Shown piece after piece: positions 46,828 to 49,817 of a stretch of DNA of 50,121 bases; the first letter of the stretch is position 1, and each line of letters opens with the position of its first letter. The position numbers were made by a program, and so were the translations under genes. The notes under the pieces were generated by a model. The model was not told where the DNA came from and did not search any database. It saw only the letters and a program-made list of their open reading frames with translations. This DNA is from Gammaproteobacteria bacterium (GTDB taxonomy: Bacteria; Pseudomonadota; Gammaproteobacteria; Steroidobacterales; Steroidobacteraceae), in contig DAHUXE010000063.1 in the NCBI GenBank assembly GCA_027307325.1, positions 1-50,121 on the forward strand, given 5' to 3'.

Positions 46828-47092
46828 GAGTGCATCGTAGCGGAACGGCGCCGCGAGGGGGCAGCGCGGGTAAGCGAATGATCAATGGTATCAACAATCT
46901 GCCGGCCGCCCTTGCTGACACCCGTGTAGCGCCTCCAATCCGTGAAGCTCCATAAGTAAAACTAATCTCCAACCTTGTGGTTTCCATTATCGTAGCTCAG
47001 ACGCGACCGAAGCCCCCGCGGGTTGAACCTGGCTCCGGAGCGTGGGCACTTACCGCTGTGAGCGTGTAATCAAGTTGAGTAGCTACAACGAC

Positions 47093-47695
47093 ATGGCAGA
47101 GGTAACCCCACGCGGCGGCAGCTCAGCGGCACGCGAGCTCGAACTCATCGCGCGGGTGGCGCGCCACGACCGGCGCGCATTCGAGGAGCTCTACAACCTC
47201 TATCACCGCCGTCTGGCGCGCTTCCTCATGCGGCTCACGCGCCGTTACGACCTCGCCGAGGAGATCATCAACGATACCTTCTGGGTGGTGTGGCGCAACG
47301 CCGGGAGTTTTCGCGGCGACTCGCAGCCCTCGACCTGGATACTCGGAATCGCCTACCGCAAGGCACGCAATGCGTTCCGCAGCGCAGCGCGGGCCCGTGC
47401 CCGGGAGAACCTGAGCCCGCCCTCGTTCCCACTCACGACCGAGGCACCGGCACGTGCCGAGGAACTGCGCGACTGGCTTGCCGCGGCCCTGAGCGAGCTG
47501 CCCGTCGAGCAGCGACTGGCGGTCGAGCTGTGCTACGAGCTCGGGCATTCGTGCGAGGAGATATCGAAGATCATGGGATGTCCGGTGAACACCGTTAAGA
47601 CCCGGTTGTTTCATGCGCGTGCGAAGCTGCAGAAACGCCTGCCGGAGCTGTCCGGCGTGCCTGGCGGCGCCGCCGCGGGGAGCGAGGGATCATGA
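47093..47695 (+). CDS. ECF-type RNA polymerase sigma factor
   Basis: This sigma factor has about 200 residues from the ATG at 47093; a GTG at 47042 is the track start but has a poor ribosome site. Region 2 is FEELYNLYHRRLARFLMRLTRRYDLAEEIINDTFWVVWRNAGSFRGDSQPSTWILGIAYRKA, and region 4 is LPVEQRLAVELCYELGHSCEEISKIMGCPVNTVKTRLFHARAKLQKRL. It is coupled by a 4-bp overlap to an anti-sigma gene and followed by a subtilase. No copy of the GGGAATAAAC promoter of the other ECF system is present here, so the two regulons are separate. Confidence 0.92.
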   Translation: MAEVTPRGGSSAARELELIARVARHDRRAFEELYNLYHRRLARFLMRLTRRYDLAEEIINDTFWVVWRNAGSFRGDSQPSTWILGIAYRKARNAFRSAARARARENLSPPSFPLTTEAPARAEELRDWLAAALSELPVEQRLAVELCYELGHSCEEISKIMGCPVNTVKTRLFHARAKLQKRLPELSGVPGGAAAGSEGS

Positions 47696-48420
47696 GTGCA
47701 GATCCGGCTTTCTCCCACGAAGAGTCCTGGCTGCTGCTGCCGTGGCTCGCCAACGGGCGGCTCGGCGGCGCCGAGCGGACCCGCCTCGAGCAGCACCTGC
47801 GCAGCTGCGCCGAGTGCGCGCGCGAGATGGCGGTGCAGCGCCTCTGGTGCAGCACGCTGACGGAGCCCGAGCGGGTGACGTACGCCCCGGGACCCTCGTT
47901 CCGCAAGCTCATGGAGCGTATCGACGCGGAGCCGCCGCTGCGGGGCAGCTCTGCGGGGCTCCCGGTCGTGCGCGCGGCGCGCGCGCGCGCTGCGTGGCGG
48001 CCGCCCGGTCTCGCGTGGGCGGCGAGTTTCGTGCTGTGCGTCGGGCTCGGCACCTTCGCGCTCACCGCGTATCGCTGGTCGCAGCCGCTCTACGTCACGC
48101 ACACCGCGCCCGCGGCCGCGCATGTGAGCGTGCTGCACATCGCCTTCGAGCGCTCACTCACCGTCGGCCAGGCCGAGCGGCTGCTCATCTCTGCGGGCGC
48201 ACGCGTGGTCGAGGGGCCTGATGCGAGCGGGGTATTCGGCGTCGCGCCGGTCACCGTGGCGGCCACGCCCGGCGATGGCGCAGCCGCGCTGCGGGCGCTC
48301 GCGGACCGTCTGCGCAGTGAGTCCGAGGTGCGCTGGGTCGAGCCTCTGCCGGGTACCGAGCCGTCCCGGGGCCCATCCGCCTCGCGCGGCCCGCCCGGGC
48401 CGCCGCCGCCGAGCCCCTAG
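47692..48420 (+). CDS. Transmembrane zf-HC2 anti-sigma factor with subtilisin-propeptide-like periplasmic domain
   Basis: This 242-residue protein has an N-terminal zinc motif H35-x3-C39-x2-C42 (HLRSCAEC), a single helix at ~105-128 (GLAWAASFVLCVGLGTFALTAY) and a periplasmic segment at ~145-219. That segment (HVSVLHIAFERSLTVGQAERLLISAGARVVEGPDASGVFGV ... LRSESEVRWVEPLP) has the length and closing V-x-x-x-EP pattern of peptidase S8 propeptides. The adjacent subtilase has its own version, LARDPRVVLAEPL. A Pro-rich tail follows. It should restrain the upstream sigma factor, and the subtilase could bind or cleave its periplasmic part. Confidence 0.83.
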   Translation: MSADPAFSHEESWLLLPWLANGRLGGAERTRLEQHLRSCAECAREMAVQRLWCSTLTEPERVTYAPGPSFRKLMERIDAEPPLRGSSAGLPVVRAARARAAWRPPGLAWAASFVLCVGLGTFALTAYRWSQPLYVTHTAPAAAHVSVLHIAFERSLTVGQAERLLISAGARVVEGPDASGVFGVAPVTVAATPGDGAAALRALADRLRSESEVRWVEPLPGTEPSRGPSASRGPPGPPPPSP

Positions 48421-48431
48421 AGAAGTCGCGC

Positions 48432-49817
48432 ATGCGTGCCTGCGCCGGGCTGCTTTCGATCGCGCTCGCCTGCGCGGCGGGCGTCCCGGATGCACGCAGC
48501 GCCGAGCCCGCCGCCGGTGCGAGCGCCGCCGTCCCGGCTTCCAGCGCCCTTCCCCGCATCGTCGTCGCCTTCGCCAACGAGCCGGGCAACGCCCCGGGAC
48601 CAGCCGGCTCGACCGGACGGCGCTACGGCGGGGACGGTTACCGCGTGTCGCAGAGCGCCGCGCAGCGAGCCGCGCGCGTGGCATCCGAATATGCGCTGCG
48701 CGAGGTGGCGAGCTGGCCCATCCGCGAGCTCGAGATGCATTGCGTCGTCTACGAAATCGTGAGCGGCCGGCCGGCGGCGGATGTGCTCGCCGCGCTCGCG
48801 CGCGACCCACGGGTGGTCCTGGCGGAGCCGCTGCACGAGTTTCACACGCTCACCGCCCCACCGTCGGGCGCCTCGCAACCGGGCGCGTCGCAACCGGGCG
48901 CGTCGCCTTACAACGATCCGCTCTACGACCTGCAAACGAGCCTGCCGACGCTCGGCGTTCCCGACGCGCACCATCGCGCCCGGGGTGCCGGAGTGCGCAT
49001 CGCGCTCATCGATACCGCAGTCGATACGCACCATCCGGACCTCGCCGGCCGCATCGTCCGCAGCCGCTCCTTCATCGGAGCGAACCGTGGCGCGGGTGGC
49101 TCGCAGCGTCACGGCACCGCCATGGCGGGCATCATTGCGGCGGTGGCCAACAACAACATCGGCATCGTCGGCATCGCCCCGCTCGCGCAGCTCGAGGTGT
49201 TCGAGGCCTGCTGGCAGCTCGAGCCGGACAGCGACGCTGCGGCCTGCAACACCTTCACGCTCGCCAAAGCGCTGGCCGCGGCTCTCGAGTCCGGCTTGCC
49301 GCTCGTGAATCTGAGCGTCACCGGCCCCTCCGACCCGCTGCTCTCCGCGCTCATCGAGACCGGCTCGAGGCGCGGCGTGGTCTTCGTCGGCGCGGTCGAC
49401 GCCGGCAGCGATTTTCCCGCGGGCGTCCCGGGAGTCATAGGGGCCGCGGGCAGCGAGAGTGCCGTCCCCCCCGGCGCCCTCGCTGCCCCGGCCCGGCACG
49501 TGCTGACCCTGCGGCCGGGCGGGCAGTACGACTTCGAGTCCGGAAGCTCGGTGGCCGCCGCCGAGGTCACCGGCGTGATCGCGCTGCTCATGTCGGCCAC
49601 GCCGGTGCGCCTCGGGAGCGAGGCCATCGTGTCACTGCTCAAGCCGGCGCCCACTGCGGCGTCGGTCACCGCCGCGGACACGGAAGTGGTGAATGCGGCC
49701 GCGGCGCTCGCACGCCTCGATCTCGGGCGGCGCCAGGCCTGCAGCGCCGTGCGCGGCGGCGCCGGCGTCGCGGCGGGCTGTGCGGCGCTCGCCGGGCGTA
49801 CGCTTGACGGGCTGTAA
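48432..49817 (+). CDS. Exported S8-family serine peptidase (subtilase)
   Basis: This 461-residue protein has a signal peptide (LLSIALACAAGVPDARSA), a prodomain ending near LARDPRVVLAEPLHEF, and a catalytic domain from ~165. The triad is D194 (ALIDTAVDTHHPDL), H227 (RHGTAMAGI) and S373 (SGSSVAAAEVTG, in place of GTSxAxP). The oxyanion Asn of the AGN motif appears to be Asp in GAVDAGS, so activity may be altered. A tandem 15-bp repeat encodes GASQPGASQPGAS in the linker before the catalytic domain. It lies 11 bp after the anti-sigma gene in the same operon, which suggests a shared regulatory role. Confidence 0.87.
   Translation: MRACAGLLSIALACAAGVPDARSAEPAAGASAAVPASSALPRIVVAFANEPGNAPGPAGSTGRRYGGDGYRVSQSAAQRAARVASEYALREVASWPIRELEMHCVVYEIVSGRPAADVLAALARDPRVVLAEPLHEFHTLTAPPSGASQPGASQPGASPYNDPLYDLQTSLPTLGVPDAHHRARGAGVRIALIDTAVDTHHPDLAGRIVRSRSFIGANRGAGGSQRHGTAMAGIIAAVANNNIGIVGIAPLAQLEVFEACWQLEPDSDAAACNTFTLAKALAAALESGLPLVNLSVTGPSDPLLSALIETGSRRGVVFVGAVDAGSDFPAGVPGVIGAAGSESAVPPGALAAPARHVLTLRPGGQYDFESGSSVAAAEVTGVIALLMSATPVRLGSEAIVSLLKPAPTAASVTAADTEVVNAAAALARLDLGRRQACSAVRGGAGVAAGCAALAGRTLDGL
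48868..48906. repeat. Tandem 15-bp repeat in the subtilase linker
   Basis: Two full copies of GCGC(C/G)TCGCAACCGG and a third partial copy run head to tail. Each full unit encodes five linker residues (GASQP) between propeptide and catalytic domain. Such in-frame repeats can change linker length by slippage without breaking the protein. Confidence 0.75.

Follow-up and report, generated by a model that had tools for sequence, protein, structure and literature searches.

What signal frees the sigma factor encoded at this locus, and does the subtilase gene lying next to it take part in that signal? To our knowledge, the signal is unknown for most of the many pairs of ECF sigma and anti-sigma factors. 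Here, the outer domain of the anti-sigma factor itself names a likely partner, the neighbouring protease, which makes the signal directly testable. The locus is located in a stretch of DNA of 50,121 nucleotides, hereafter called the window. We give about an even chance to the reading that it is a self-contained protease-sensing operon, in which the subtilase encoded beside the anti-sigma factor would dock, in trans, on the propeptide-like domain of the latter, leading to sigma release.

The initial annotation had placed three genes on the forward strand in this region, and they are indeed found there, Pfam assigning Sigma70_r2 and Sigma70_r4_2, zf-HC2 and Peptidase_S8 to their respective products (Table 1). 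The first protein contains sigma-70 regions 2 and 4 only, over about 200 residues, as is characteristic of ECF sigma factors. The genes had also been described as overlapping. This is correct for the sigma and anti-sigma genes, which share 4 nt (ATGA), but not for the anti-sigma and subtilase genes, which are separated by 11 nt. Judged by their arrangement in the sequence, the sigma factor, the anti-sigma factor and the S8 subtilase form one operon.

Table 1. Features of the operon in the window (coordinates in nt; each of the three genes is given from its ATG to the end of its stop codon).
Feature	Position	Strand	Basis
Putative ECF-type promoter, TGAACC-N17-CACTTACC	47024..47054	+	conserved upstream of sigma in close loci
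ECF sigma factor, 200 aa	47093..47695	+	Sigma70_r2 1.5e-11, Sigma70_r4_2 5.6e-17 (Pfam)
Membrane anti-sigma factor, 242 aa, with zf-HC2, a single transmembrane helix and a C-terminal domain of propeptide-like fold (predicted)	47692..48420	+	zf-HC2 3.1e-6 (Pfam)
zf-HC2 anti-sigma domain, residues 14-43	47731..47820	+	Pfam
Predicted transmembrane helix, residues ~106-125	48007..48066	+	hydropathy peak at residues 106-124
Propeptide-like periplasmic domain, residues about 147-219, beta-alpha-beta-beta-alpha-beta	48130..48348	+	AF2, Foldseek, hhalign, PF22148 in relative L044
S8 subtilase, 461 aa, signal-peptide-like N-terminus	48432..49817	+	Peptidase_S8 7.4e-22 (Pfam)
Cis prodomain of the subtilase itself, residues ~42-138, with VVLAEPLHEF at its end	48555..48845	+	AF2 strand/helix order (moderate confidence), conservation, hhalign
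S8 catalytic domain	48984..49622	+	Pfam, alignments
Catalytic triad D194, H227, S373	49011; 49110; 49548	+	D/H/S present
D323, at the oxyanion Asn position	49398-49400	+	placement agrees with thermitase alignment

The anti-sigma factor, encoded beside the ECF sigma gene, carries the HxxxCxxC zinc motif. Pfam recognized zf-HC2 in 32/32 relatives, and H35, C39 and C42 are invariant in these sequences. Hydropathy predicts a single transmembrane helix, followed by a short linker and by some 73 residues that make up the C-terminal domain, and the presumed membrane orientation would place this C-terminus in the periplasm. One locus (L120, 570-1307) encodes a protein that resembles an anti-sigma factor and has a similar domain at its C-terminus, but in which no zinc motif can be recognised; its gene still lies between sigma and S8. 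Also, the window contains a second zf-HC2 anti-sigma factor with its own ECF sigma factor (at about 27212, minus strand; L085), without a propeptide-like domain.

According to its predicted fold, the outer domain is built like a subtilisin propeptide. Residues 130-226 were modelled by AF2 from an alignment of 19 sequences, which gave a core with a pLDDT of about 85 and the element order E19-23 H29-38 E41-45 E52-57 H64-79 E84-89. The best PDB match to this model in Foldseek was the prosegment of subtilisin BPN' (1spb_P; prob 1.00, TMt 0.72), followed by the Tk-subtilisin propeptides, pro-subtilisin E and POIA1; the E-values were weak (the best was 0.03), and further down the list came RRM and ribosomal plait proteins. 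As the anti-sigma factor of the window alone gave no match to a propeptide family in Pfam (even at E 10) or NCBIfam, the likeness was demonstrated through its relatives. The domain of relative L044 reached 26.7 bits against PF22148 (Fervidolysin_NPro-like), the cut-off of which is 21, and weak matches to this family in 4 of the 32 relatives made it the second commonest Pfam match after zf-HC2. The best PDB sequence match of the domain profile, which was weak (E 0.07), was Sb3, a plait protein obtained by design and related to an engineered inhibitor of subtilisin (PMC9879998).

The initial annotation had noticed that this domain and the prodomain of the adjacent subtilase close with the same pattern. 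Both of the strings that it quoted are present, and their likeness is more than a chance match of short strings. Two profiles, one built from the anti-sigma domains of 67 loci and the other from the prodomains of the module's own S8 subtilases, were aligned by hhalign across the closing alpha2-beta4 with a probability of 74% and P = 2.8e-5; control profiles built from the S8 catalytic domain and from the N-terminal part of the anti-sigma factor reached a probability of 0.3% at most. The structure prediction against subtilisin propeptides, proposed as a check at that stage, gave a propeptide-like fold with both AF2 and Foldseek, backed by PF22148 in the relative and by the prodomain profile. 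In the relatives, the domain sits at the C-terminus of the anti-sigma factor, with a median of 8 residues past the beta4 glutamate; in the window, this glutamate is followed by 25 Pro/Gly-rich residues, a length exceeding that of propeptide tails. Prodomain inhibitors insert their nine C-terminal residues into the cleft of the protease (PMC9879998). The domain is not N-terminal to an S8 catalytic domain in one chain, the S8 being a separate gene, and a comparison of the reading frames of the relatives revealed no in-frame arrangement of anti-sigma factor and subtilase.

The alpha/beta plait of the propeptides is a common fold among proteins (PMC9879998), as the RRM and ribosomal proteins in the Foldseek results also illustrate. 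The domain could thus be a generic plait sensor of something else, the subtilase being a member of the regulon kept in the operon for co-expression only. However, subtilisin propeptides specifically head the list of folds, and the PF22148 cut-off is passed in a relative. The distribution of the S8 gene across genomes bears on the same alternative, in both directions.

Close relatives on contigs of sufficient length, from Steroidobacteraceae and other gammaproteobacterial MAGs, all present sigma, anti-sigma and S8 genes in the same order. The search was extended to 369 genomes of Gammaproteobacteria and to 399 from across the phylum, which added more distant loci; outside Gammaproteobacteria, the latter genomes would be largely Alphaproteobacteria, Methylocapsa being a named example. 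An S8 gene adjoins the propeptide-bearing anti-sigma gene in 62 of the 65 distinct testable loci, window included. An unbiased sample comprised 23 zf-HC2 loci, 3 with the domain and 20 without, and the S8 neighbour was found in 3/3 of the former versus 1/20 of the latter. Comparison of 62/65 with 1/20 gives a Fisher p of 7e-15, with the reservations that some of the control contigs have a short length and that full independence cannot be assumed for the relatives. The reciprocal search from the S8 side gave 18 loci, 3 of which were cut by contig ends; 14 of the 15 others adjoin a sigma gene and/or a domain-bearing anti-sigma gene, six of these 14 being too divergent for detection from the anti-sigma side. 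The remaining locus, L128, has an S8 of another kind and a different genomic context. A usual absence of the peptidase from homologous operons had been named by the initial annotation as an argument against its own reading; the survey shows that the peptidase is nearly always present. Neither this outcome nor the other one that it had named, a fold unlike that of a propeptide, was observed, and its reading, a tethered inhibitor that would dock the subtilase, is supported in part. In two loci (L049, L050) and on a plasmid of Methylocapsa polymorpha, the S8 gene is located upstream of sigma instead, so the linkage survives an altered gene order. As far as gene neighbourhoods can tell, this trio of genes stays together in many Proteobacteria.

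The three loci without an adjacent S8 gene (L027, L032 and L038, equal to L096-L098) belong to one family and have a sigma factor and a domain-bearing anti-sigma factor. In two genomes of this clade (G314 and G091), no S8 gene was detected anywhere. An S8 gene is therefore not required for the domain to be retained, and in these genomes the domain may have a different partner. This observation favours the generic sensor, as does a pair in the genome of the window itself. On contig C9 (L092, 4646-7296), a second S8 gene, with a canonical AGN motif, is divergent from another ECF sigma/anti-sigma pair, and the outer domain of that anti-sigma factor is different and not propeptide-like. Nevertheless, the S8 linkage tracks the domain in the unbiased zf-HC2 sample, and together with the fold results this leads us to regard a sensor of something else as improbable. 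In L096, the propeptide-bearing anti-sigma gene is placed between dnaJ/dapB and carAB. A mirror-tree analysis gave partial correlations with S8 of 0.25 for the periplasmic domain and 0.26 for the cytoplasmic domain, that is, no extra signal of co-evolution.

Subtilisins are the top PDB matches of the subtilase both by sequence and by fold. The AF2 model of the whole protein was only moderate (mean pLDDT 62), the subtilisin fold being confirmed by Foldseek; PADLOC matches were set aside as generic S8. In S8s of the window's type (32 loci, among relatives L001-L046), the catalytic triad is kept wherever the sequence covers it and the AGN motif of the oxyanion hole is absent. This motif is kept in 25 other partner S8s, outside the window's type. 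Because the subtilase of the window is devoid of the oxyanion motif, a lack that the initial annotation had overlooked, its protease activity may be low, and for the same reason subtilases of this type may be poor site-1 proteases; their catalysis could be slow or one-shot. Partner S8s of a second type (L028, L042, L082, L086) have long N-terminal extensions, often Pro/Gly-rich, with an apparent Ig-like (CARDB/IPT) domain before the prodomain, as recognized by eye.

Subtilisin propeptides are folding chaperones and inhibitors of S8 proteases. By the same token, the outer domain of the anti-sigma factor could act in trans as a folding chaperone or inhibitor that retains the subtilase at the membrane just after its secretion and contributes little to signalling. 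We consider this very unlikely: subtilases of the window's type carry their own cis prodomain, and the fusion of a further propeptide-like domain to an anti-sigma factor would be left unexplained.

Of 23 close loci, 17 have the putative promoter motif some 40-70 nt before the sigma domain, and nowhere else in the 2.98-Mb genome is the motif of the window matched exactly. This conservation and the lack of another exact match indicate that the operon is probably the main target of the sigma factor. The operon would then be autoregulated, and the subtilase would be both a product of the circuit and a possible input to it. The sole site with one mismatch elsewhere in the genome (contig C125) falls within a TonB-receptor-like open reading frame and was not counted as a target. 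A second motif-like match in the loci was discarded as it lies within the sigma coding sequence, and a first promoter guess, CCAACC-N16-CGTA, was dropped as not conserved.

A circuit of opposite sign has to be weighed at this point. RseB shields RseA, and the docked subtilase could similarly protect the anti-sigma factor; when the subtilase is lost or titrated, another site-1 protease would cut, sigma would be freed and more subtilase would be produced. Since the operon appears to be the main target of sigma, such a homeostat would control the level of the subtilase itself, and the window's type of subtilase, having lost its oxyanion motif, looks more like a binding partner than a cutter. On the other hand, no readable sequence lacks the triad, and the canonical AGN is found in the partners that do not belong to the window's type. 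We thus hold this reversed circuit to be unlikely, although it deserves attention.

To the operon, its domain architecture, the predicted propeptide-like fold, the reciprocal linkage and the conserved promoter, the protease-sensing reading that we prefer adds docking, cleavage and a direction of response, which we infer. The zf-HC2 anti-sigma factor would hold the ECF sigma factor at the membrane, and its propeptide-like domain would dock the subtilase in trans on the outer side, in addition to the subtilase's cis propeptide. It is the mature subtilase, once free of this cis propeptide, that would dock. As a result of docking, the anti-sigma factor would be cleaved on the outer side of the membrane; the cut would be made by the subtilase or by a different protease gaining access, in the manner of RsiV and lysozyme. 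Subsequent intramembrane cleavage of the RseP type would free sigma, which would transcribe its own operon. The genome encodes one M50 site-2 protease. It is conceivable, although we lean somewhat against it, that these loci represent a widespread class of switch in which an anti-sigma factor senses the protease of its own operon via a captured subtilisin propeptide, and in which the protease of the window's type, having lost the oxyanion motif, would be mainly a slow or one-shot signalling ligand.

Among known systems, RsiV and lysozyme may be regarded as the closest functional analogue. In Bacillus subtilis, the outer domain of RsiV, the anti-sigma factor of sigmaV, binds the active site of lysozyme, inhibits this enzyme and thereby triggers its own cleavage (PMC5014341). 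Likewise, the operon of the window would combine a membrane anti-sigma factor, an outer domain acting as an inhibitor-type enzyme receptor and regulated intramembrane proteolysis, this likeness being a predicted one. However, the ligand of RsiV is lysozyme and not a protease of the same operon, its site-1 cleavage is carried out by signal peptidase, and Pfam gave no match to an RsiV-type outer domain among the 32 relatives. The RseA-DegS-RseP system of sigmaE shares with the present one an ECF sigma factor, a membrane anti-sigma factor with a periplasmic C-terminus, a candidate serine site-1 protease and a site-2 protease in the genome; here, in contrast, the candidate protease belongs to family S8, its gene lies in the same operon, and it has a counterpart in the propeptide-like domain. 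The subtilisin propeptides and their relatives (Inhibitor_I9, PF22148, POIA1) resemble the domain in predicted fold, in the order of strands and helices and, for most relatives, in the short tail after beta4, whereas the domain of the anti-sigma factor is provided in trans, at the C-terminal end of a membrane protein. ECF54 also has a conserved subtilase neighbour, together with a carboxypeptidase, and has been proposed to work without an anti-sigma factor (PMC8999054); in the window and its relatives, an anti-sigma factor is present, which sets these loci apart from ECF54.

In the literature searched, from which most subscription papers were absent, we found no anti-sigma factor described as carrying a domain of the subtilisin-propeptide kind; the main ECF reclassification (Nucleic Acids Res. 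2021) may already list this sigma group. If the preferred reading is true, an inhibitory propeptide would have been reused as a receptor, linking the status of a secreted protease to transcription in Gamma- and probably Alphaproteobacteria, and this receptor would be a second one of the enzyme-inhibitor type among anti-sigma factors, beside RsiV. Finally, in one genome (G323), the whole sigma/anti-sigma/S8 module occurs twice, the copies being nearly identical (L033 and L037).
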